The position numbers were made by a program, and so were the translations under genes. This document shows positions 452 to 54,754 of a stretch of 64,000 bases of DNA, piece after piece. This DNA comes from Candidatus Aquicultor sp. (GTDB lineage: Bacteria; Actinomycetota; Aquicultoria; Aquicultorales; Aquicultoraceae). Within the stretch, counting starts at the first letter, position 1; every line of letters starts with the position of its first letter. Under the pieces are notes generated by a model. It ran no database searches. It saw only the letters and a program-made list of their open reading frames with translations, and was not told where the DNA came from. The stretch lies in contig DASXVE010000023.1 of assembly GCA_036504445.1 (NCBI GenBank), positions 1 to 64,000 on the forward strand. Direction: 5' to 3'.

Positions 452-1336
452 TTACTGCGCCGGCTTGCCGATAACTTCAATTTGTTCCTTCGTTAGCCTG
501 GCGGCAATCCGTTCTCTAATAAGCCGCTCGACCCGGTCTTGTTCACTTGATGCCGTACGGACTGCGATCCTGAACACCATCGCGTTATCTCTAAATTCTT
601 CGATACCGGTAACCTGAGGAAGCTCTTGAAGGACGTCTTTGACTGTAGGGTCATCAGCCAGCTTGGTCATCTCGTCGCACACCGTGTCGAGTACCCGTTG
701 GGGGTTTTGCGTAGTAGGCACGCCGAACTCAACCACGGCGCGTGCCCAACCACGCGAATGATTTATTACTACCGTAACTTGGCTGTTAGGTATAATGTGC
801 AGGCTTCCCTGAAAATCACGAAGCAGGGTAGTGCGTAGGCTCAGCTGCTCGACGGTACCCTTATCGCTGCCGATTTGTACGAGATCGCCGACGCTGTACT
901 GGTTTTCAAACAGGATAAAAAACCCCGAGAGAAAATCTTTAATCAGGCTTTGCGCCGCGAGACCGACTGCGACGCCGAGAACCCCGGCACCCGCAAGGAG
1001 GGCTGTGATCTCAACCTTTGTCGTGGATTGAAGGATGACGAGCACGGCGAGAAAGAATATCGTGAATTTCGCGAGTGCATCAAGCACGTTGGCCAATGTG
1101 AGCGCGCGTTGCTTGGCTTGATCCTCGGATATAAACGGGTTTTTGCTAATGAGGGACACCGAACGGTTAATGGCAATACTCAGCAGCCTATATATGATAG
1201 CGCTTGCCAGCAGAACCAGAATCACAATAAGGGCATTATCTCTCAGCCAATTAACAGTCTGCTCGAGGGTCGTGCCTGCTTTTACCGGCAGATTACTCTG
1301 CATTAAGCTATTCACCGCTCCACCTGTCTGTGCCAT
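452..1336 (-). CDS. MscS-family mechanosensitive channel
   Basis: A 294-residue protein with a hydrophobic N-terminal helix (about 35-55), a second segment (about 88-110), then the Gly/Ala-rich pore helix containing LLAGAGVLGVAVGLAAQSL. This is followed by the MscS beta domain (FENQYSVGDLVQIG) and a C-terminal alpha/beta domain. It is a short YkuT/YbdG-like channel; the family opens under membrane tension and releases solutes during hypo-osmotic shock. The start ATG has a weak AAGGAA upstream on the minus strand. It is convergent with the small membrane protein gene and divergent from the ncRNA/rRNA-like locus. Family assignment is firm; no further specificity can be read. Confidence 0.92.
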   Translation of the reverse strand: MAQTGGAVNSLMQSNLPVKAGTTLEQTVNWLRDNALIVILVLLASAIIYRLLSIAINRSVSLISKNPFISEDQAKQRALTLANVLDALAKFTIFFLAVLVILQSTTKVEITALLAGAGVLGVAVGLAAQSLIKDFLSGFFILFENQYSVGDLVQIGSDKGTVEQLSLRTTLLRDFQGSLHIIPNSQVTVVINHSRGWARAVVEFGVPTTQNPQRVLDTVCDEMTKLADDPTVKDVLQELPQVTGIEEFRDNAMVFRIAVRTASSEQDRVERLIRERIAARLTKEQIEVIGKPAQ

Positions 1337-1624
1337 AATCGGGTACCTATTCCTTGTGATATCGAGTTACCTCTACATCGATTATTTAATCATAACAGGG
1401 GGGTGCTCAGTAGTCTTCAGGAAATAATTATAAAAAGGTTAAGGAAAATTATGGTAATGCCGATATAGTAATTACCGTCAAAAACACCAGGCAATAAGCC
1501 AGCCCAGCGCAGTTCAAATCTTACTACCGGACAAGAATGGTTTATTTTGATTAAAGAGCGCGCATCTGGGTATAAACTAATTGGTAGAAAGCAGTGGCTT
1601 GCTACCCACTTTGATAATTAAAAA

Positions 1625-1832
1625 TGGAAGGACTTAAGATCGCAGATCAAGACCGGCGTATCCCACCGAGAGGATGGGACCGGCGGTTGGGCATAAGTTG
1701 TCATGAAGCCGAGGGACCTGATAGGTATGTTGGATAGGTAAATCCAAGGTGCTTACAGGAAAACCCTTAAGCGAGCCCCGGTAAGGGGAAGGGCGACGAT
1801 GCGAAGGCAGTCTTAGGTCCTTTCTTTTTTTG
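1625..1832 (+). ncRNA. structured non-coding RNA, candidate raiA-motif RNA
   Basis: No coding frame covers this interval, but it folds well by eye. An 11-bp closing stem pairs 1628-1638 (AAGGACTTAAG) with 1812-1822 (CTTAGGTCCTT) and runs straight into a T-run (1821-1831), like an intrinsic terminator. Inside are hairpins UCCCA/UGGGA near 1661-1682, GGAU/AUCC around 1732-1745, GCUUA/UAAGC near 1750-1772 and CCCC-GGUAA-GGGG near 1776-1790. A possible promoter is TTGATT 1547-1552 with TATAAA 1571-1576. Size, architecture and the GGATAGGTAAATCC segment remind me of raiA-motif RNAs of Firmicutes and Actinobacteria, but I am recalling that consensus, not searching it. That it is a structured RNA is much surer than its class. 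Confidence 0.6.
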
Positions 1833-1951: not shown

Positions 1952-1983
1952 CGTTCTTTGAAAAATGAACAGATTGGCCGGAC
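1952..1983 (+). promoter_or_regulatory. rRNA leader: boxA-like antitermination site and 16S processing half-stem
   Basis: CGTTCTTTGAAAAATGAACA (1952-1971) resembles the boxA/leader sequence in front of Gram-positive rrn operons, and a related CTTGTTCATTGAAAAC recurs in the spacer at 3985-4000. Immediately after it, TGGCCGGAC (1975-1983) is perfectly complementary to GTCCGGCCA at 3768-3776 beyond the 16S-like RNA. This gives the 9-bp stem expected for RNase III-type processing. I see no convincing -35/-10 pair upstream; TATATAA near 1934-1940 is a possible -10. Confidence 0.6.
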
Positions 1984-2045
1984 AAAAACCAAAAATATTA
2001 ATCTTGTTACCTCGCTTGTGATGCCTGGCATCCAGTGAGGTTTAT

Positions 2046-3690
2046 TAATCTGCGGGTCTGGTCCCGGCCCAGGACGAACGCTGGCGGCATGCACTTGCCC
2101 CGACAAGTCGAGCGGACTGTTCCTACAATTTCTGTAACCGTAGCACGTTTGCTATGGATTAGGAAAAGGACGGTTACGCGGCGAACGGCGGAGTAACACG
2201 TAGGTGACCTGCCTCAAAGACCGGAATAACCTCACCCCGGGAGGCCCTAAAAAGGTCACTTGGGATGAGCTAATGCCGTATAAGCTCACACTGCTCATGC
2301 GGCGTGAGAAAAGGTAGCCCTTAATCAAGGCTTCCGCTTTGAGATGAGCCTGCGCCCCATCAGGCAGTTGGTGGTGTAAAAGACTACCAAGCCGATGACG
2401 GGTAGCTGGCCCGAGAGGGTGGTCAGCCCGACCGGAACTGAGACAAGGCCCGGGCCCGAAAGGGCTAGCGGGGTGGAATCTATCGCAATGCGCGAAAGCG
2501 TGACGATGCAATGCCGCGTGAAGGAAGAAAGCAGGTGAAAACACCTGTCGTAAACTCCAGTCGGTGGGGAGTAAGCGTGGCCGGTTAAGAGCCGGACCAC
2601 GTGAAAGTACCTGCCGGTAAGAGCGCCGACAAACTGCGTGCCAGCAGTCGCGGTCAAACGTAGGGCGCAAGCGTTGTCCGGAATTACTGGGCGTAAAGGG
2701 TACGTAGGCGGCTTGGGCGTATCGGCTGTGAAAGCCCTCCGCAAAACGGAGGAAGGGCAGCCGAGATTACTCGGCTAGAGCCCGGCGGAAGGAAGTGGAA
2801 CTTCCGATGTAGCAGTAAAATGCGTTGATATCGGAAAGAACCCCAAACGGCGAAGGCAGCTTCCTATACCGTGGCTGACGCTAAAGTACGAAAGCCAGGG
2901 GAGCGATGCGGTTTGGTACCCGCGTAGTCCTGGCTGTAAAAGATGGGCACTAGCTCCCGACCCTCAGGAAGGCCGGAGGCGAAGCTAACGCATTAAGTGC
3001 CCCGCCTGGGGAGTACGGCCGCAAGGCTGAAAACCAAGGGACTTGTGGAAACCTGCACAATCGGCGGCGAGTGTGGTTTAATGCGATTTCGAGCGCAGAA
3101 TCTTACCAAGGTCGCCCGTGCGTGAAAGCCGGTGGAAACACTGGCATGCCGTTCAAACTGTGGGCAACCCACGGTGACGCGGAAACTCGCACAGGCAGGC
3201 ATGAATGGTCACCGTCAGCCCGTGCCGTGAGGCGTGAGGTCAAATCCTCGTAACGGGCGCAACCCCTTACCCCATGTTGCCATCGGACACACGCCGGGCA
3301 CTCATAGGGGACTGCCCGCGTTCGAAGTGGGAGGAAGGCGGGGACGACGGCAGATCCGTATGTGCTGAGTACCTTGGGCTACACACACGCGACAGTGATC
3401 GGGACAAAGAGGGCCGATCCCGCGAGGGGGAGGAAATCTCAAAAAACCGACCGAGGTACGGATTGCAGTCTGGAACCCGACTGCATGAAGATGAAGCCGA
3501 TAGTAATCGCAGATCATCAAGCTGCGGTGAATACGTTCTCAGGTTTTCTTCATATTGCCGGCCGCATCCGCCATAGAAGAAGCAGCTGAAGCTACGCGGC
3601 CCAACCGGACCCCAGCGGGCCTCATTTTTGAGGTTTACTGGGACCCGGAGGACGGTAGCGAGGCTGCTCCGACGAGGCGGTCGTAGGATG
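2046..3690 (+). rRNA. 16S-like rRNA with altered functional centres
   Basis: Homology to 16S rRNA is unmistakable along its length (AGGACGAACGCTGGCGGCAT near 2071, GGAATTACTGGGCGTAAAGG near 2680, GAAGCTAACGCATTAAGTG near 2982), at about 1645 nt. It departs from consensus at sites that are nearly invariant in life. The 27F, 515F, 806R and 926R priming sites all carry changes. The 790 loop is UUUGGUAC (2912-2919). The C1400/A1408 strand and the A1492/A1493 strand (3647-3655) are rewritten, the h45 tetraloop is CGAC (3670-3673), and CCUCC is absent at the 3' end. Helices are kept by paired changes: h1 2054-2058/2066-2070, pseudoknot 2062-2064/3038-3040, h18 2629/2648, h24 2908-2911/2920-2923, h28 3049-3055/3540-3546, h31 3082-3085/3094-3097. 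Numbering follows E. coli, aligned by eye from memory. I infer a paralogous, structure-conserved RNA rather than the cell's working 16S. Confidence 0.9.
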
Positions 3691-4021
3691 GGCATACTGC
3701 CCGTACCGAGAGGTGTGGGCGTAAACTTGGAGCTCAGGCTCTTCTTTTAAGATGCCAAAAGCTCGATGTCCGGCCAGGAGTTCCGGCTCCGGGTTCCCCC
3801 GGGGGCAACCCCCAGGCAACACCCGTCCGGACGATCTCCAAGGTTTGCACATAAACCTTGGGGCTGAAGGTTCAAGGCTAAAAGTCCAATGGTGAAGATG
3901 CCGATTTTCATTGTTGGGTGGGGCCGAGCAGCCCAACCAGCCTTGAGCCTTGAGCCCGCACGGCGCGTAAACCGTGCGTCTCACCTTGTTCATTGAAAAC
4001 AATATAGCGTGCATTAGAAAG
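3691..4021 (+). other. 16S-23S spacer without tRNA; second boxA-like site and processing stems
   Basis: No tRNA can be folded here. The spacer carries GTCCGGCCA (3768-3776), pairing with the leader. It has a stem of GGTTCAAGGCT with AGCCTTGAGCC (about 3869-3955), a GCACGG/CCGTGC hairpin (about 3959-3979), and a boxA-like CTTGTTCATTGAAAAC (3985-4000). ATAGCGTGCA (4004-4013) is perfectly complementary to TGCACGCTAT at 7271-7280 beyond the 23S-like RNA, the expected 23S processing stem. Keeping these parts argues that the locus is still transcribed and processed as one precursor. Confidence 0.7.
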
Positions 4022-7261
<3,240 letters not shown>

Positions 7262-7311
7262 TTAACCTAGTGCACGCTATTTCTTTTGATAATTCTATAA
7301 ATATATAACCC

Positions 7312-7346
7312 AAAAAGCTGTTCACTGATTGCGAACAGCTTTTTTA
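7312..7346 (+). terminator. intrinsic terminator of the rRNA-like operon
   Basis: AGCTGTTC (7316-7323) pairs with GAACAGCT (7333-7340) across a 9-base loop, preceded by A5 and followed by T-rich sequence. It closes the operon directly after the 23S processing stem, leaving no room for a 5S gene. The remaining bases to 7557 show nothing I recognise. Confidence 0.85.
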
Positions 7347-7570
7347 TTCTTATCCTAACGGGTGCTTGTGTTTAGCGCATGGTTTCCATACACTATACGT
7401 TAACCGAACGTTAGGATCGCCTTGAAATACAGAGAAGCACTGATCCCGCACTATATATAAAGACCTACAAGTATAAACAGCGGAATCACCTAACTTGGTT
7501 GCTTTATCCTGCTAATTTAGATAAAATTAAGACGAGAAGGCGAAAGGTTTTTTGATTGGAGGCTGCTTTC

Positions 7571-8149
7571 GTGTTCGCAAAATTGATTCGTAAATTAAAA
7601 GCAATGAACAAGAAGACGTTAATCATTTTAAGTGTGGTGGTGGTGGTCGCAGTTGTAGGTGGCGGTTACTTAGTATCAAATGCCTCCGACAAATCATCAA
7701 CGGAACAAACACAGAAACAAGTTGACATCGCCAACGCAGCTCTAGCCGGTTGGCGTGTTAAAAATGATGCTCGCCTTGAGGTCAACAAGGCAAAAGTCGC
7801 TGAATTTAAGCAGAAACTCATGAATTATTACGATCCGAGCACCGGTGCGTTGGCCGAACAACAGCGGCTTATTAACGCATTGATTGCTGCCGATGAGGCA
7901 GCCGCTAAGGATGATAATTCAGGTGAGGCAATAAAAAGCTTCGATATTTCCAGCGTAGCCATTAAAGCGCTCGATATTAAAAGCGAAACGGCAAAATTGA
8001 CTGCGGATGTTGAGTATTACATTAAGTATGAAACCCAAAACCAAAGCTACAGCACATTTGGCAAGAATCGCATAAATTGGGAGCTTAAGAAAGAGGGCAA
8101 GAGCTGGAAGATCACTAAAGAAGCACTAGTCCCTGGTGATAATTCCTAA
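7571..8149 (+). CDS. membrane-anchored exported protein of unknown function
   Basis: GTG 7571 has GGAGG at 7558-7562 with 8-base spacing, so I prefer it to a codon 15 bases upstream inside that site. The 192-residue product has a basic N-terminus, one transmembrane segment (about residues 16-35, ILSVVVVVAVVGGGYLV) and a hydrophilic Lys/Ala-rich domain ending in a beta-rich part (VEYYIKYETQNQSY, INWELKKEGKSWKI). That tail resembles exported NTF2-like or lumazine-binding-like domains. It probably sits outside the membrane on an N-terminal anchor. No function can be named. Confidence 0.65.
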   Translation: MFAKLIRKLKAMNKKTLIILSVVVVVAVVGGGYLVSNASDKSSTEQTQKQVDIANAALAGWRVKNDARLEVNKAKVAEFKQKLMNYYDPSTGALAEQQRLINALIAADEAAAKDDNSGEAIKSFDISSVAIKALDIKSETAKLTADVEYYIKYETQNQSYSTFGKNRINWELKKEGKSWKITKEALVPGDNS

Positions 8150-8271
8150 TGAACGAAGAGCGACCAAATGTTGTGTTAGCCGGCGGGTGATGCACAGACT
8201 CTGGTGCTGGTCAGCACTGTGTGAGCGCTACCTCGATATACGATAAACATGCGAGGGGGGCAACTAATCCT

Positions 8272-9012
8272 ATGTCGGCAGACCGAATTGATAATTGCTC
8301 TGTATGCAGTGTATCACTCGAATACCTTGAAGACAAAGAAACGTTAAGCTGCTACTTTTGCGGAATGCAAGCGAGTACTGATGTGTGGTGCCCGGAAGGT
8401 CACTTTGTATGCGAATCGTGCTATAACATGTCTGTGCTTGATTTTATTGATGAGACAGTTCGCACAAGCCGCGCAACGAACCCATACGATCTTGCATCAA
8501 TTATGATGACATACCCCCGGCTTGCTTCGTATCGAAACCCTTGCGAACACGCTCTCGTTTTCGCTGCTGCAATGCTTATCGCTGTTAAGAATGAGGGAAC
8601 GATTAAGATTTCCAGTGAGGACATTCTTATAGCCCTCGGGACCATACAGTGCGATGAAAATAACCTTGAGTTCTGCGGCCCCGATGCCGCTTACGGGTGC
8701 TGCATGAGGTCCGGCATTATCGCGACTTTCGGCACGATTTTCAAAGCCGCCGAAGGCGACGCGGAACCTGACAGCGTAACAGTAAGGGTTATACGACGCG
8801 TGATAAAGAGTCTTTCCGATAATACGGAACAGCACAAGTGCCTTAAGAACATTGTTCTAACAACAATGGACCTTTTCACGCCAATCATACAGGCCAGGTT
8901 CGGTGTAAGGCTTGAGGGGTCCGCTCACGAGATAATTTGCTACCAAATAGGTCAAGCAAGAGATTGCAGTCCTACAACATGTCATTACAGTCCACTGTTA
9001 AGTGCCAAGTAA
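8272..9012 (+). CDS. DUF5714 cysteine-rich protein
   Basis: A 246-residue protein with a paired-cysteine N-terminus (CSVCSVSL, SCYFCGMQ, CPEGHFVCESCYN) typical of DUF5714, likely a metal site, then a helical domain with several more Cys (FCGPDAAYGCCMRSG). The family is common in anaerobes, often near methyltransferase or radical-SAM genes, without a demonstrated reaction. I chose ATG 8272 because GGGGG lies at 8256-8260; an in-frame GTG at 8221 has no site and overlaps a short inverted repeat (GTGCTG/CAGCAC). It stands alone on the + strand with no obvious partner. Confidence 0.75.
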   Translation: MSADRIDNCSVCSVSLEYLEDKETLSCYFCGMQASTDVWCPEGHFVCESCYNMSVLDFIDETVRTSRATNPYDLASIMMTYPRLASYRNPCEHALVFAAAMLIAVKNEGTIKISSEDILIALGTIQCDENNLEFCGPDAAYGCCMRSGIIATFGTIFKAAEGDAEPDSVTVRVIRRVIKSLSDNTEQHKCLKNIVLTTMDLFTPIIQARFGVRLEGSAHEIICYQIGQARDCSPTTCHYSPLLSAK

Positions 9013-27373: not shown

Positions 27374-27751
27374 TAATATTCTCCAAATAGGGAGAACATA
27401 GCTGTAATGCTAAAGGCTATGAAGGGGAGTAGTAAGCTTTCTTACTGTAGGAGCGAGCCGGGGATGGTGCGAAGCCGGTACAAGACGAAAGCCGAATGTC
27501 GCCCCGGAGCCGGCCACCTGAACAGCAATAGGGTTGATAATGATAAGGTTTATAACCATAGCGCTTAGTAGTTTGGCCCGTGATATCCGCGTTACGGATA
27601 CAAGTGCAGCACGCCCGTAAACCAAGAGATAATGAAATAGCTTGGCGAAGAAACGCCCGGTTACGTAAGAGTCGGTTTGGCGCGCTGAAGTTGGGTGGTA
27701 CCGCGTGAGAATCCTCTCGTCCCATATGGGGCTGAGAGGTTTTTATTTTTT
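27374..27751 (+). promoter_or_regulatory. T-box riboswitch leader of ilvD operon, probable valine specifier
   Basis: The T-box sequence AAGTTGGGTGGTACCGCG (27688-27705) is present in full. Downstream, CCTCTC/GAGAGG with an inner CCC/GGG stem and T-run (27713-27750) forms the terminator that competes with the antiterminator. Stem I upstream has the usual AGCGAGCCGGGGATGGTGCG distal part (near 27452-27471). In the specifier loop GAATGTCGCCCCGGAG, the likely codon is GTC 27498-27500 (Val); reading one base off is possible. Uncharged tRNA would switch on ilvD and the genes behind it. Confidence 0.92.
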
Positions 27752-27780: not shown

Positions 27781-29445
27781 ATGTCAACGAGAAGTGATGA
27801 GGTTAAAAAAGGGGTTATTCGGGCACCGCATCGGTCGCTTCTGCGAGCAACCGGTCTTACGGATGAGGAGATATCGCGGCCGTTTATCGGTATCGCCAAC
27901 TCCGCAAACGATGTAATTCCCGGGCACATACACCTTGATAAGATAGCCGAGGCCGTAAAAGCGGGAATTCGTCTCGCGGGCGGCACCCCGTTCGAGTTCT
28001 CAACCATCGGGGTGTGCGACGGTATTGCGATGAATCATCCGGGCATGAAGTATTCGCTTCCAAGCCGCGAGATTATCGCCGATTCCGTTGAGCTTGTCGT
28101 TGAAGCCCATCGCTTCGATGCGCTCGTTCTTATTCCAAGCTGCGACAAAGTAACGCCCGGTATGCTGATGGCGGCCGCCAGGGTTAATATCCCAACGGTT
28201 GTTGTAAGCGGCGGGCCGATGCTTGCCGGTAAATACGATGGGAAGGACATCGACCTGATCAGCGTCTTCGAGGCGGTCGGTGCGGTGTCGTCGGGCGCGA
28301 TGACCGAAGAAGAGCTTGCCGAGTTTGAAGCTTGCGCCTGCCCGACATGCGGTTCGTGCGCCGGTATGTTCACGGCTAATACTATGAACTGCCTGACCGA
28401 GGCCATCGGTTTGGGTCTTCCTGGTAACGGGACGATTCCCGCCCCGTACTCTGAAAGAATCAGGCTTGCCAAGCATGCCGGCATGGCGGTTATGAACCTG
28501 CTTGCAAAAAATATTACGCCGGATAAGATACTTACGAACGATGCGTTTCGCAACGCGCTCACTGTTGACATGGCGCTCGGCGGCTCGACGAACACTATGC
28601 TGCACCTGGCGGCGATCGCTCACGAAACCGGTTTGGAATTCGATTTGAAACTGGCGGATAAGATCAGCCAGAGCACGCCGAACCTGTGCAAGATAAGCCC
28701 TGCGGGCACACAGCATATCGAAGATCTGTACCGCGCAGGCGGCATCATGGCGGTTATGGCCGAGCTGAATAAGGGCGGCTATTTGAAGACGAACACCGTG
28801 ACGGCAACAGGGAAAACCCTTGCCGAGAATCTCGAGGGCGTTAGCGTTCTCGACAGCAATATTGTTCGCCCGCTCGACAATCCGTACTCAGCGACGGGTG
28901 GCCTTGCCATACTCTTCGGAAACCTGGCGCAAGACGGCGCTGTGGTCAAGCAGGCGGCGGTCAAAGAAAGCATGCTCGTTCATTCGGGGCCGGCTCGCGT
29001 ATTTGATGGTGAAGCTGAAGCGACCGACGCGATAATCGGTGGAAAGATAAAAGCCGGTGACGTTATCGTTATCCGATATGAAGGGCCGAAAGGCGGCCCC
29101 GGTATGCGTGAAATGTTAACGCCGACTTCCGCGCTCGCCGGTATGGGCCTGGATGATAAAGTGGCGCTTATCACCGACGGGCGTTTCTCGGGCGGCACAC
29201 GAGGTGCTGCGATAGGGCACGTCTCGCCGGAGGCACAAGAACGTGGCCCGATTGCCGCAGTGCAAGAAGGCGATACTATCGAGATCGATATTCCCGGCAG
29301 GAAGCTTAACGTAAAGCTCTCAGACGAGAAGATCCAGGAGAGGTTGAAGAGCTGGACAACTCCTGCACCGCGGGTTACAAAAGGATATCTCGCGCTTTAC
29401 GCGCGGATGGTTTCATCCGCCGCAAAAGGTGCTGTTATAGAGTAA
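27781..29445 (+). CDS. ilvD: dihydroxy-acid dehydratase
   Basis: 554 residues, full length. Iron-sulfur Cys lie in [12 protein letters not shown] and [35 protein letters not shown] near the C-terminus is the other family mark. It forms 2-oxoisovalerate and 2-oxo-3-methylvalerate for Val, Leu and Ile. GGAGG precedes ATG 27781. First gene behind the T-box, followed by ilvB after 51 bases. Confidence 0.97.
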
Positions 29446-37075: not shown

Positions 37076-37921
37076 AATTCGCCTCTAGCGCATCGTGTGT
37101 TTTCTGATTACTACAGGTGTTTTAGGAAAGAAGGGTATATATGTATCACCACGGCTTAATAATACTATAGGGTTACCGTGATATCAAACTTTTGGTGGAA
37201 ACAAGCCAACGGAGTTAGCTTGTTGAGCGCTAATCAAATATATCAGGAAGATTTTCAAAATATTTTCAAATATAGTGTAAGGTATTACGTGATATAACGT
37301 TGTATATAGTAGCAGCAGCAAAATCGTATACCCTACCGGGTAGCCTATATTTGGAGATACACATAGATATGCGGTACGTAAGCATGGTACCGCATATTGC
37401 TTCTAGCGCCATTTTATACTGCAAAATATTATCACATCGCCTCAAGACAAGGTCGCTTGCCTATTAGCGCTGCTCACATATCCTTTCGAAAACAGATACC
37501 CCTATAATAATTGATTGTTTCGTGAAGACTTGTACAAATACTTGTAACAAAAGTGTAAGAAAGAATGGCAGCTTACGTTTTAACTAGGTAGACGCTTAAA
37601 AGTAGGGCATGGAAATATCAAACGAATAAAGAAAGACTGGAGAGATACCAGCTCTCCAGTCGAGTGCAAAGAAACCTGGGACAGGCTTCGATTTGCTTTT
37701 CTATTTTATCAAGAAAGCAAGCTTGTATTCAACACTTTGAAAGCAAGCATACTTTGATTAACTGCGGACATCTCAAGACTCCTATCCCAAAAACTTTGCG
37801 GCACATTGTATTTTCGTATGCAATCCCGTTGCTCAAGCGGGTGTAAATCTAGCTAAGAAGGGAGGGGTTTAAAAGAATGATTGAGCGCTTAATAATAGGG
37901 AATTACAAGGGAGGAAATTTC
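37076..37921 (+). other. long non-coding leader between sigma gene and cytochrome gene
   Basis: No supportable gene in 846 bases. Perfect hairpins are visible: ATATGCGGTAC/GTACCGCATAT (37369-37399, 11 bp), GACTGGAGAG/CTCTCCAGTC (37634-37660, 10 bp), a nested GCAAA ... CCTG/CAGG ... TTTGC (37667-37697) and CCCG/CGGG near 37827-37843. The second half looks like a structured 5' leader of the cytochrome mRNA, but I could not match it to c-di-GMP, T-box or other riboswitch consensus. Confidence 0.5.
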
Positions 37922-40600
37922 GTGAGAAAGCATTTTATAACACTGGCCATCTTAGTAATTGCGGCGATGGTTCTGTGCGCTCCGGCGGCATTTGCGGCGG
38001 CTCCGACGGTAACAATTACCACTCCTGCCAGCGGAGCAACCGTTGCGGGAACGATACCGATCAATGCCACCTGTGCAGCCTCCGGTGCGACAATTAGTAG
38101 CGCAAGCTACCAGATCGACGGCGGCGTTGCGGTTAGCATGTCGGGCCCAACCGGCGCTGCATCGGGTACCTGGACAAGCTGGTGGGACACAAGCAAAGTT
38201 ACCAACGCCAGCCATACCATTAAAGTTACAACCACAGATTCACTCGGTGTAACCGGATCGGCTCAAATCACCGTTACGGCAAACAATCCAACTCCGGCGC
38301 CGCCAACAGTTAAAATTACGGCTCCGACAGCGGGCGCTACGGTTGTCGGCAGCAACGTTGCCATCACCGCTGATTGCACCGGGGGTAGCGGCTACACTGT
38401 AACCGATGTGTCGTATAAAATCGGTACCGGCACACCGCAGGTCATGGCGGGCCCGGACGGCTCTATTGCCGGCACCTGGAACAGCCTGTGGGACACCACC
38501 AAGGAGAAAAACGCTACATATACGCTCGCTGTGACCGTAACCAACTCCGCGGGCAAGACGGCGACGGCAAGCATCTCGGTCAAGGTAAACAACTCGTCAT
38601 CAACATTGAGCATTCAAACGGTATCGAACAAGTACCGGTATAATCCGAGCAATGTTGTTGTCGTCAGGGCTATTGCGCAAAATGGCCTCAACAGGCTCAC
38701 AAGCGGGCGCATCAGCACTGCTAAAGTTACCATCAAAGATCCGGCTAACAAGGTTATTGTTAACGCCGTTGCTATGAGCAAAGACTCAACGACCGGGTTC
38801 ATGTTCTATAGCTATACGCTCCCAGCAGCACCGGCAAAGGGTGTCTGGACTGTTAGCGTAGCTGTTACGGATACACGTGCCTGGACTGGTACCGGTACCA
38901 ACACCTTTAAGGTAGAGCTTCCGGTTCCGGATCACTCGCAGTACATCACTGCTAGCAATCCATACCTGGGCACCAAGACCTGTATCACCAGTGCTTGCCA
39001 TGCAACACAGGCAAACACAATGTTTAGCTCGCTTCACTATCAGTGGAGAGGAGACAACTCGAAAGCTATCGAGCTTGCAGGTTCAAACCCACAAGTTTCA
39101 AAGATGGGCGGTATTAACAATTACTGCGTATGGGCCGAGGGTAACTGGATCGGCACCATGACCAATCTTGACAACACCGCTAATAACAAATGCGGTTGCG
39201 CATGGTGTCATGCCGGTCTCGGTTTGAAGCCGGCGACCGTTTCAAGCCAAGCTCAGCTTGAGAACATCGACTGCTTGATCTGTCACAGCACAAGCTACAA
39301 GAGGATTGTTCAAACCAATCCAGACGGTACGTTTGTTTTAGTGCCGGATCCGACAATCGACATTCAAGCTGCCGCCAAGACTATCAGCCGTCCAACTAAA
39401 GCGACCTGCTTGCGTTGCCACGCAAACGCCGGTGGCGGCGACAACAACAAGCGCGGCGACATCGATTCAAAACTGCCAACGTGCGTCAAGAGCTATGACG
39501 TACACATGGGTACCGACGGCCAGAACTTCGAGTGCCAGGATTGCCATAGAACGATCAGTCACAAGATGGCCGGTCGCGGCAACGATATGCGAGCGGTTGA
39601 TCTTAACTTCGACATGAGCTGTGAAACCTGCCATACAAAGGTTCCGCACCGCTCAACGAACGTTAACTATAAATATCTTGATCGACATACAGACAGACTC
39701 AACTGTACGACCTGCCACGTGTCTGCTTTTGCGAAAGCAGTTTCAACGGATATGGTCAGAGACTGGAGAACGCTAGAACCGATTCCTGCTATCAACAGGT
39801 GGGATCCGACAATTACGCGTGGGTCGAATGTCATGCCAACCTATGCATGGTTCAATTCGTTTAGCCACTTCTACAAGTTCTTAGATCCGGTTACGTATGC
39901 GGCGAACGGCAAGGTACAAATGGCGTATCCGGATGGTGCATATACCGATATTCCAGGAAAACCGATGGCAAAACTGTATCCGTTTAAGGTACACGAAACC
40001 TGGCAGCCGAAGAACAACGCCGTTGGCAACAAGTTTGATAACATCTTGCTGCCGATCAGGAACAAAGTCGCCTTTGAAACCGGCGATGTCAACGCCGCTA
40101 TTATCGAGGGTACCAATATCGCAAACGTAACCTACAACGGACATACCTTCGTGCAGACGCAAAGTTACCAGAGCATCCATCACGCAGTAGGCCCGAAATC
40201 AACGGCGCTTAGCTGCGCGACTGCTACGGTTTGCCACGCGCAGCTCGGCGGCACCGTTGCAAGGATTCCGTTTAGCAGTCTCGGTTACGTAAGAAGAGGT
40301 ACCGACGCACAGCTCTGCGACGTATGCCACAGCATGCACAGCAGGTCGAGCATGTCCTTTACTTCGTTCCATGCCGAGCACAGGGACAGGAATAACTGTG
40401 CGACATGCCACGGTGTAGGCTATCCACTTAAAGAGCCGAGAACGACGCTCTGCGATAACTGCCATAGCTACAAATCAGTGTCCGACCCGAACTGGATTCA
40501 CAATAAACACGTCCAGGGCAAGGGCTACGATTGTAGTAACTGCCATACCTTTACCAGGAGTCTTACCAGTGGCGGTCACTTAAAGAGTCATGACGATTAA
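37922..40600 (+). CDS. secreted multihaem cytochrome c with Ig-like repeats
   Basis: 892 residues from GTG 37922 (GGGAGG upstream). Signal peptide (HFITLAILVIAAMVLCAPAA), then two tandem Ig-like repeats of about 90 residues (each with a TAPTAGATV/TTPASGATV start and a GTWxSxWDT core), a third beta domain, then a haem-rich region from about residue 345. Ten CxxCH motifs are present (CAWCH, CLICH, CLRCH, CQDCH, CETCH, CTTCH, CDVCH, CATCH, CDNCH, CSNCH), plus CITSACH and CATATVCH with longer spacing, so 10-12 haems. It probably carries electrons outside the cell membrane to or from an external partner. No cytochrome maturation genes adjoin. Confidence 0.92.
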   Translation: MRKHFITLAILVIAAMVLCAPAAFAAAPTVTITTPASGATVAGTIPINATCAASGATISSASYQIDGGVAVSMSGPTGAASGTWTSWWDTSKVTNASHTIKVTTTDSLGVTGSAQITVTANNPTPAPPTVKITAPTAGATVVGSNVAITADCTGGSGYTVTDVSYKIGTGTPQVMAGPDGSIAGTWNSLWDTTKEKNATYTLAVTVTNSAGKTATASISVKVNNSSSTLSIQTVSNKYRYNPSNVVVVRAIAQNGLNRLTSGRISTAKVTIKDPANKVIVNAVAMSKDSTTGFMFYSYTLPAAPAKGVWTVSVAVTDTRAWTGTGTNTFKVELPVPDHSQYITASNPYLGTKTCITSACHATQANTMFSSLHYQWRGDNSKAIELAGSNPQVSKMGGINNYCVWAEGNWIGTMTNLDNTANNKCGCAWCHAGLGLKPATVSSQAQLENIDCLICHSTSYKRIVQTNPDGTFVLVPDPTIDIQAAAKTISRPTKATCLRCHANAGGGDNNKRGDIDSKLPTCVKSYDVHMGTDGQNFECQDCHRTISHKMAGRGNDMRAVDLNFDMSCETCHTKVPHRSTNVNYKYLDRHTDRLNCTTCHVSAFAKAVSTDMVRDWRTLEPIPAINRWDPTITRGSNVMPTYAWFNSFSHFYKFLDPVTYAANGKVQMAYPDGAYTDIPGKPMAKLYPFKVHETWQPKNNAVGNKFDNILLPIRNKVAFETGDVNAAIIEGTNIANVTYNGHTFVQTQSYQSIHHAVGPKSTALSCATATVCHAQLGGTVARIPFSSLGYVRRGTDAQLCDVCHSMHSRSSMSFTSFHAEHRDRNNCATCHGVGYPLKEPRTTLCDNCHSYKSVSDPNWIHNKHVQGKGYDCSNCHTFTRSLTSGGHLKSHDD

Positions 40601-52993: not shown

Positions 52994-54754
52994 ATGAAAC
53001 TTAAGTATGTTAATATTGCCAATTTTCGTTCTATCAAAGACATAAGATTTGAATTCCCTCAGTCTGGAATTTTAATTCTAGTAGGCGCAAACAATGCCGG
53101 TAAGTCAAACATTATTCGGGCCATTAACAATGTTCTTGGTAGCGATTGGTTTAGCAGTGAGAAGTTAGAAGACCATGATTTCTACAACCGGTGCAAAACA
53201 AATGAAATTAAAATTTCCCTAACTTTCGATACTGGGGCAGTAGCTGGCTTTAAATGGTGGACTAATCAGGGCGACTATAAGGGGTTCAAGAGGCTTGGTG
53301 TCGGTCAGGATACCTTTATGTCAAACGAGTTCAAAGAGAAATGTCCGTGTACTTATCTTGGTGCTGATAGATCTTTCGATAGACATACATCATTTTATGA
53401 TTGGACACTTATCGGGAAAATTAGAAAGGCTTTTCATAATCGTGCAGCTCCACTACAAAGCCAACTTCAAGAAAAATACAATGAGCTTGCTAGCGTCTTT
53501 GATCAAGTAGATGGGTTCACAGACTTTAAGGACGATTTTGCTAGGTATTTTCAGGAAATGCAGGCCGATACACCTGCTAGATTGTCCATAGATTTTAAGC
53601 CGTTCACTCCATCTAACTACTTTAAAACCATGCACATACTCGCTACGGACCCTAACCAAAGTGATGAGCCGCTAGATCTTTCCGAACTTGGTGAAGGAAG
53701 TAGAAATATGGTTCTTTTAGCCTTGTTGCGAAGTTATACGGTTAACTTCCGAAATACCCCTGATGAGATAAGCGGGATTCTTGCCTTAGAAGAGCCTGAA
53801 ATATATCTTCACCCGCAAGCCAGAAGACATCTCTATAAGATTCTTCGAGATATCGCTAATAATGGAATTCAAGTGATTATTTCAACGCATTCTAGCTCTT
53901 TCGTTGATACAGAATTTTTCGATTCAATTGGCCAAGTTATTAAAGTGCAAGACGATGAAGAGCCAAACAAGATGCATACGTCGCTCGTTCTGGTGTCCAA
54001 AAGCATGCTTGTTGCACAATGTCGCAATACTGGTGTTCCGGCTAATAAGGTTTGCGAAGCCAATATTACTGAATTTTATAAAACAACATCAAACCACCGT
54101 TTGAACGAGAGCTTCTTCGCAAAGTTTCTGATATTAGTTGAGGGTGAGACGGAAGAACTAACACTACCCGAACTTTTAGTCGCTGAGTGTATTGACTGTG
54201 ATTTGCAAGGAATATCCATCATTGCAGTGAAGGGCAAAAATCAAATTCCCAAATATTGGCGATTGTTTAGTCAGTACAAGACCCCTATCATGGTCGTATT
54301 TGATAACGATGATGATGGTACCGATGCAAATGGCCAAATGAGGGCTAAGAGAAAATCAAATCTTAATCTGCAGAGTTGCTTTGGCCTAGAACTCGATGAA
54401 ATAATTGAGAATATCGATATATACAAAACAATTAGCTGCAGATCCGAGCCAAATACACCCCTACTAATTCTAGAGAATGATTTTGAAACCGCATTGCGCA
54501 AGGATTTTACCCGCACATTTCCTGGTGAAACCGCATTGCTAGATGATTGGGAGGCTCAAGCTAAGGATTTAATTAAGCCGGTTGGCAATCAGAACAAAGG
54601 TCAGATAGCACGTTTTATTGCACGTAAAATGCATGAGACACATCCTGCATATTGCCCTAGTTTCGTTCGCGAAATAGCAAGCATTGTAAAAACACAACTG
54701 TTTATGGACACTGAAACAGAGAGTGAACCGGATATTGAAGAAGTGCCATTCTAG
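52994..54754 (+). CDS. OLD-family ATPase/TOPRIM nuclease
   Basis: 586 residues. N-terminal ABC-type ATPase with Walker A VGANNAGKSNIIRA, signature-like LSELGEGSRNMVLLALL, Walker B GILALEEPEIYLHPQA and ISTHSSSFVD. The C-terminal TOPRIM domain starts FLILVEGETEELTLPELL, with VVFDNDDDGTD as the acidic cluster. OLD enzymes are DNA nucleases, many acting in phage defence. No Shine-Dalgarno sequence precedes ATG 52994; a TATAAA sits directly upstream. It is AT-richer than the chromosomal genes and is paired with the next gene in one repeat-bounded module. Confidence 0.9.
   Translation: MKLKYVNIANFRSIKDIRFEFPQSGILILVGANNAGKSNIIRAINNVLGSDWFSSEKLEDHDFYNRCKTNEIKISLTFDTGAVAGFKWWTNQGDYKGFKRLGVGQDTFMSNEFKEKCPCTYLGADRSFDRHTSFYDWTLIGKIRKAFHNRAAPLQSQLQEKYNELASVFDQVDGFTDFKDDFARYFQEMQADTPARLSIDFKPFTPSNYFKTMHILATDPNQSDEPLDLSELGEGSRNMVLLALLRSYTVNFRNTPDEISGILALEEPEIYLHPQARRHLYKILRDIANNGIQVIISTHSSSFVDTEFFDSIGQVIKVQDDEEPNKMHTSLVLVSKSMLVAQCRNTGVPANKVCEANITEFYKTTSNHRLNESFFAKFLILVEGETEELTLPELLVAECIDCDLQGISIIAVKGKNQIPKYWRLFSQYKTPIMVVFDNDDDGTDANGQMRAKRKSNLNLQSCFGLELDEIIENIDIYKTISCRSEPNTPLLILENDFETALRKDFTRTFPGETALLDDWEAQAKDLIKPVGNQNKGQIARFIARKMHETHPAYCPSFVREIASIVKTQLFMDTETESEPDIEEVPF

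Follow-up and report, generated by a model that had tools for sequence, protein, structure and literature searches.

The 64,000-nucleotide stretch analysed here (the window) contains at 2046-7258 a divergent rRNA operon, made up of a 16S-like and a 23S-like gene, which is an ancient, conserved second 16S-23S operon whose products, judged from their sequence, are probably non-translating paralogues that would still fold and perhaps bind ribosomal proteins. The window genome is referred to as G000, and the comparison genomes are labelled G001-G011 and so on; functional sites are given in E. coli numbering, with four or five divergent copies read per site. When compared with Rfam RF00177, the divergent 16S scored 1012 bits; in this phylum, normal genes of full length mostly reach 1454-1617 bits. 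It is ~65% identical to any normal 16S, one from the same family included, and 201 of the 921 comparable sites that are invariant in eight normal 16S genes are changed in it. The window 23S displayed 78-84% identity to the divergent 23S genes of G001, G009, and G005, and 69% identity to the normal 23S of the family. The parts of the operon and its neighbours are listed in Table 1.

Table 1. Features of the divergent rRNA operon and its flanks (positions in the window)
Feature	Position	Strand	Remarks
Mechanosensitive-channel gene, upstream neighbour	452..1336	-	likewise upstream of the operon in G009
boxA-like leader motif GTTCTTTGAAAA	1953..1964	+	assigned by eye
16S processing stem, 5' arm TGGCCGGACA	1975..1984	+	10 bp, exact complement to 3767-3776
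Divergent 16S-like rRNA gene	2046..3729	+	Rfam RF00177, 1012 bits, full length
Helix 24 apical hairpin (790 loop), GCGG-UUUGGUAC-CCGC	2908..2923	+	8-base loop
Helix 44/decoding region, 5' strand	3549..3570	+	C1399U, C1400U, C1404G, U1406C, A1408G
Decoding region, 3' strand	3680..3702	+	universal GAAGUCGUAACAAGG to GUAGGAUGGGCAUAC: A1492 to U, A1503 to U, U1498 to G
Helix 45 and 3' tail	3702..3740	+	GAGA for GGAA; no GAUCACCUCC, i.e. no anti-Shine-Dalgarno
16S processing stem, 3' arm TGTCCGGCCA	3767..3776	+	pairs with 1975-1984
23S processing stem, 5' arm ATAGCGTGCA	4004..4013	+	10 bp, exact complement to 7271-7280
Divergent 23S-like rRNA gene	4026..7258	+	RF02541, 2109 bits, full length
P-loop region	6619..6632	+	G2251/G2252 to U/U
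Peptidyl transferase centre (PTC), 2440-2460 region	6815..6835	+	A2451 to U
A-loop region	6921..6935	+	G2553 kept in the window copy, neighbours changed
Sarcin-ricin loop	7028..7042	+	AGUACGAGAGGACC to AGUACGCAAGGAAC
23S processing stem, 3' arm TGCACGCTAT	7271..7280	+	pairs with 4004-4013
Intrinsic terminator after the 23S gene	7312..7346	+	sequence
ARC6-like and DUF5714 genes, downstream	7556..9012	+	kept in G001 (DUF5714), G005, G009, and the empty-site genomes

The 790 loop at the tip of helix 24 was the subject of a preliminary description of this DNA, according to which the stem CAGG/CCUG is replaced by GCGG/CCGC and the 9-base loop by one of 8 bases. The window reads GCGGTTTGGTACCCGC at 2908-2923, i.e. 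GCGG-UUUGGUAC-CCGC, an 8-base loop on a re-paired stem, and in the normal 16S genes compared, helix 24 reads CAGG-AUUAGAUAC-CCUG. Structure-guided alignment with Infernal to the Rfam bacterial SSU model placed the segment at helix 24 (model cgGG-AUUAGAUAC-CCcg), with a single loop position deleted and the stem whole, and RNAfold again predicted four stem pairs closing a loop of 8 bases, which bears out the described change. The relatives keep it as well: the 8-base loop, with a covarying stem, is present in all divergent copies readable at helix 24, as GCGG-UUCGGCAC-CCGC in G009, GCGG-UGUGGCAC-CCGC in G001, and GGCG-AUUGGAUU-CGCC (4-bp stem) in G011, which belongs to another family of the same order; an inner A-U may also pair in the G011 hairpin, which would leave a 6-base loop. 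The divergent copy of G005 starts downstream of helix 24, and the hairpin is unreadable there. At three of the four stem pairs both bases have changed, and at two of these the new pair differs between the two families. It had further been stated that the loop lost a residue and most of its invariant bases; the residue is indeed lost, but not all of the bases are gone, as U788, G791, and C795 are, as aligned, retained in every divergent copy. Given the independent genomes, the 8-base loop is neither chance nor a read error. We note that it is a symptom of a far larger change, alongside the lost anti-Shine-Dalgarno (anti-SD), decoding, P-loop, and PTC residues, and it would follow from a release of P-site constraint with the helix 24 stem still under selection.

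Orthologous divergent operons were found in four more genomes, three of the same family (G001, G005, and G009) and one of the same order (G011, Actinomycetota). Exact matches to a diagnostic 20-mer occurred in just these five divergent-operon genomes among 396 sampled across the phylum, and matches with one or two mismatches in other phylum members were at a level similar to that of the reversed-pattern control. An exact match in Trichococcus was dismissed as chance, the sequence there looking protein-coding. The viral contigs gave no exact match to the 20-mer, and among the plasmid records none covered 80% of the query, the best places being 67-69% identical. The divergent 16S genes are 83-87% identical to each other within the family and 70% identical to that of G011, and in a 16S tree the four near-complete divergent copies grouped in a single clade (support 100/100) that was separate from the normal genes, including those of G007 and G011.

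The three family members with comparable flanks (G001, G005, and G009) carry the operon at one common chromosomal locus; they partly share an upstream small gene and the mechanosensitive-channel gene and, to a varying degree, downstream genes encoding ARC6-like, DUF5714, DUF5658, and CoA-binding proteins. With these flanks conserved within the family and no match in the viral contigs, a mobile or viral rRNA operon was rejected. The genomes of genus g4 (G003, G006, and G010) carry the flanking genes with no rRNA between them, i.e. a clean empty site, and the contigs of G004 and G002 start at the operon site, as if an rRNA operon had broken the assembly, which does not by itself prove its presence. 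The sequence flanking the divergent copy in G011 was not matched to the site used in the family. In that genome, a 23S 5' fragment (L031, 304-580) lies near the contig end in the opposite orientation to the divergent 16S and is possibly a local assembly error. The simplest history is that the operon was present in the ancestor of the order and was lost in g4; its absence from g4 indicates that it is dispensable, which we count against our explanation. That the operon is an assembly chimera, contamination, or a sequencing error is scarcely credible: those relatives that have named records are metagenome-assembled or unidentified-bacterium genomes, and one contig of the window genome looks foreign (C21, described below), but independent assemblies contain orthologous operons between shared neighbouring genes, a synteny across genera that refutes this reading, and the differences are structured rather than random.

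Several other features of the window were recorded. At 1590-1832 (plus strand) lies an RNA of ~210 bases that folds strongly and has a long terminal stem and a terminator-like T run; it matched no Rfam family plausibly when E values up to 1 were allowed, and is conserved in place in G009 and G001 as well as in G003, G006, and G010, which have no rRNA operon there; it is a probable unannotated ncRNA. Further along on the same strand are a T-box leader (27410-27727) just upstream of the dihydroxy-acid dehydratase gene (27781-29445) of a branched-chain amino-acid cluster, a large protein in which multihaem cytochrome c domains are combined with a bacterial Ig domain (37877-40600), and an OLD-like ATPase/TOPRIM protein (52994-54754), a candidate defence nuclease.

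The divergent operon is a second operon, other than the main rRNA of the cell, as indicated by the normal 23S and 5S elsewhere in the genome and by canonical Shine-Dalgarno (SD) usage. A 65-kb contig of the same genome (C10) carries a normal 5S and the 3' end of a normal 23S, which shares 95% identity with its normal counterpart in G005, and the 5000-base stretch directly before this 23S end reads N and is of a size that could hold a normal 16S. Canonical SD motifs with at least 6 matching bases precede 35% of 49 window genes, compared with 8% for shuffled motifs, whereas the tail of the divergent 16S is not matched as SD partner (6%, compared with 3%). Both G005 and G007, which belong to the same family, carry normal operons; G005 has two kinds of 23S, one of them normal (2829 bits) and the other divergent (1966 bits), and G011 has two 16S genes (1208 and 956 bits). 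It is thus very improbable that the divergent operon supplies the sole working 16S and 23S of the organism, as part of a strongly derived ribosome, even though the gene at 2046-3729 is the only full 16S that cmsearch finds in the window genome; the normal 16S of the genome falls outside the sequence read. The preliminary description had implied an altered P-site loop for the subunit joining and initiation of the organism; this is not supported, as the gene belongs to a second, divergent operon and normal 23S and 5S sequence and normal SD usage are present.

A further normal-type 23S, 77% identical to the normal 23S of the family, lies on contig C21 of the window genome (L080, 3087 bases); C21 probably entered the assembly from a foreign source, and its 23S was left out of the argument because of this low identity. 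The normal 23S genes of G007 (L035, 13578-13880), G005 (L100, 10920-11243), and G004 (L103, 4240-4547) contain group I introns, and the same profile scans reported none in the divergent 23S genes. Gene conversion between the operons was not seen, domain I of the divergent and normal 23S being 75-78% identical; despite this, the invariant sites of domain I are mostly kept.

The changes in the divergent rRNAs extend to the functional centres. In the 16S, A1492 is replaced by U in all four copies read there and A1493 by U in three of the four, A1408 is replaced by G in four of five copies, C1400 is altered in all five, and U1498G, A1503U, and A1518G each occur in four; the anti-SD CCUCC (the GAUCACCUCC tail) is absent past helix 45 in four divergent copies. 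In the four divergent 23S genes, A2451U, G2583A, and G2661A are each universal, as is G2251U, with G2252U in three of the four copies; G2553, unlike in the window copy, is altered in three others. To our knowledge, every known ribosome uses these contacts with the codon helix and the CCA ends of tRNA, and changes at several of these sites are dominant-lethal in E. coli. Invariant 16S sites are kept at 49-55% in the functional centres and at 79-81% outside them, a difference with p below 1e-6 for every one of the four copies. With gaps counted as changes, G000 and G001 show a clear enrichment of this kind in the 23S, G009 a weak one (p 0.03), and G005 none; by region, 93-99% of invariant 23S sites are kept at positions 101-500 and 2701-2900 and 56% at 2101-2200 (the L1 stalk). 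The formerly universal sites that are changed are monomorphic among the copies in 67% of cases, compared with 62% for ordinary variable sites. Being about as variable as ordinary ones, they point to released constraint and no visible new active site.

The main rival explanation is a specialised active ribosome that would translate selected messages, decoding and initiating in an altered way, as has been claimed for milder rRNA variants such as Vibrio vulnificus rrnI. Both subunit RNAs and the processing stem are retained, as are G530, A1339, C1402, and U2506 in the divergent copies and A2602 in three of four, and divergent operons with preferential translation exist (PMC9586635). However, A1492, A1408, G2251/G2252, A2451, and the anti-SD are changed together in nearly all copies, and the genes for S12, S7, and L3 are single-copy and without paralogues, which makes such a ribosome unlikely. 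A Pfam scan of 30 ORFs in the window gave no ribosomal protein gene (~23 ORFs lay outside the scan), and, with S12, S7, and L3 single-copy, dedicated ribosomal proteins for the divergent rRNA were rejected.

We examined the divergent 16S copies for signs of selection on structure. On the Rfam SSU structure (456 pairs), they keep 85-90% of the pairs and the normal genes 89-93%, with the normal gene of G056 left out of this comparison. Pairs changed on both sides and still pairing numbered 28 between G009 and G000 and 18 between G009 and G001, when simulations of independent change gave expectations of 6.2 +/- 2.4 and 3.4 +/- 1.9, respectively, i.e. an excess of four to five times. Between these genera, the flanking proteins are mostly 41-62% identical and the spacers, judged by eye, largely unalignable; the 83-87% identity of the 16S against this background indicates strong constraint. 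In the divergent copies, unpaired sites have lost their lead in conservation over paired ones (84% and 83%, respectively, compared with 91% and 78% in the normal genes).

The 23S processing stem (core AUAGCGUGCA) is kept in all four operons for which both sides were available (window, G009, G001, and G005), in G005 with a G-U pair as read by eye. The 10-bp 16S processing stem was seen in the window copy and was not found in the other divergent copies. Motifs resembling boxA, again assigned by eye, lie before the 23S in the divergent operons. No 5S match was found anywhere in the window, and the divergent operons of the window, G009, and G005 end in a terminator and have no 5S. The divergent operon of G001 retains a 5S (L034, 16799-16914, 91 bits), 30 bases past the 23S.

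The kept pairs, the compensatory excess, and the conserved 23S processing stem together indicate that the operon is under selection and not in free decay. A pseudo-operon in slow decay, i.e. a duplicate inactivated in an ancestor and drifting with leftover structure, would account for the faster evolution of the divergent copies relative to normal rRNA (which we also count against our own explanation), for the absence of the operon from one genus, for the missing 5S in most copies, and for the relaxed look of the changed sites. The compensatory changes, which continue between genera, largely refute it and make it quite unlikely, and the 16S identity amid diverged flanking proteins and spacers and the kept 23S stem also stand against it.

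The explanation that we favour is the conserved, probably non-translating second operon introduced at the outset. The divergent RNAs would be transcribed, matured, and folded, and would then join the ordinary single-copy ribosomal proteins in subunit-like particles that do no ordinary translation. Both the inactivity of the divergent rRNA and its binding of ribosomal proteins are what we infer from sequence. Most likely they would act as scaffold or decoy, for instance by keeping ribosomal proteins in reserve or by drawing off ribosome-binding factors under stress, and a scaffold, reservoir, or decoy role seems the most economical idea. There is, in our estimate, an even chance that members of this order build a translation-dead, ribosome-like particle selected for ribosomal protein storage, factor sequestration, or stress protection, with rRNA exapted whole. 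If confirmed, this would be a natural ribosome-like particle released from translation and would provide a test of which parts of rRNA suffice for folding and protein binding; it would also call for caution in surveys and tree building based on 16S, which would misplace such genes.

The functional centres of rRNA are regarded as some of the least variable sequences known in biology, and copies that diverge are seen as either working ribosomes or junk. A limited and in part poorly targeted search of open-access full text gave no report of a comparable operon (35% divergence, erased centres). The known working divergent rRNA operons include Haloarcula marismortui rrnB, Vibrio vulnificus rrnI, and those of Streptomyces coelicolor (PMC9586635), and in Scytonema hyalinum a conserved rrs diverges by 7.3-9.0% (PMC6002687). 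Like these, the window operon is a second, sequence-distinct operon maintained over time beside normal operons in one genome; unlike them, it is ~35% divergent in 16S, compared with at most ~9% in the Scytonema case. The known divergent operons are regarded as working ribosomes, whereas in the window operon decoding and catalytic positions are changed: an rrnI-type operon would be expected to retain these residues and to vary elsewhere, and here the 16S functional sites are changed more often than the other invariant sites. With normal bacterial rRNA (RF00177 and RF02541) it shares the SSU and LSU secondary structure, the gene order, the 23S processing stem, and the boxA-like leader, but it differs in its altered functional centres (decoding A1492/A1493, P-loop G2251/G2252, and PTC A2451), in having no anti-SD, and, in the window copy, in having no 5S. 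With rRNA pseudogenes, such as those of filamentous ascomycetes (PMC5555474), it shares the loss of universally conserved functional sites; unlike them, it has a structure and a processing stem under selection and forms an entire 16S-23S operon whose site is conserved from genus to genus, so that the lack of structural constraint expected of a pseudogene is not seen. The operon thus lacks tested defining features of both functional rRNA and pseudogenes and by its sequence fits neither a working ribosome nor junk: its scaffold is selected and its catalytic and decoding centres are erased, across genera.
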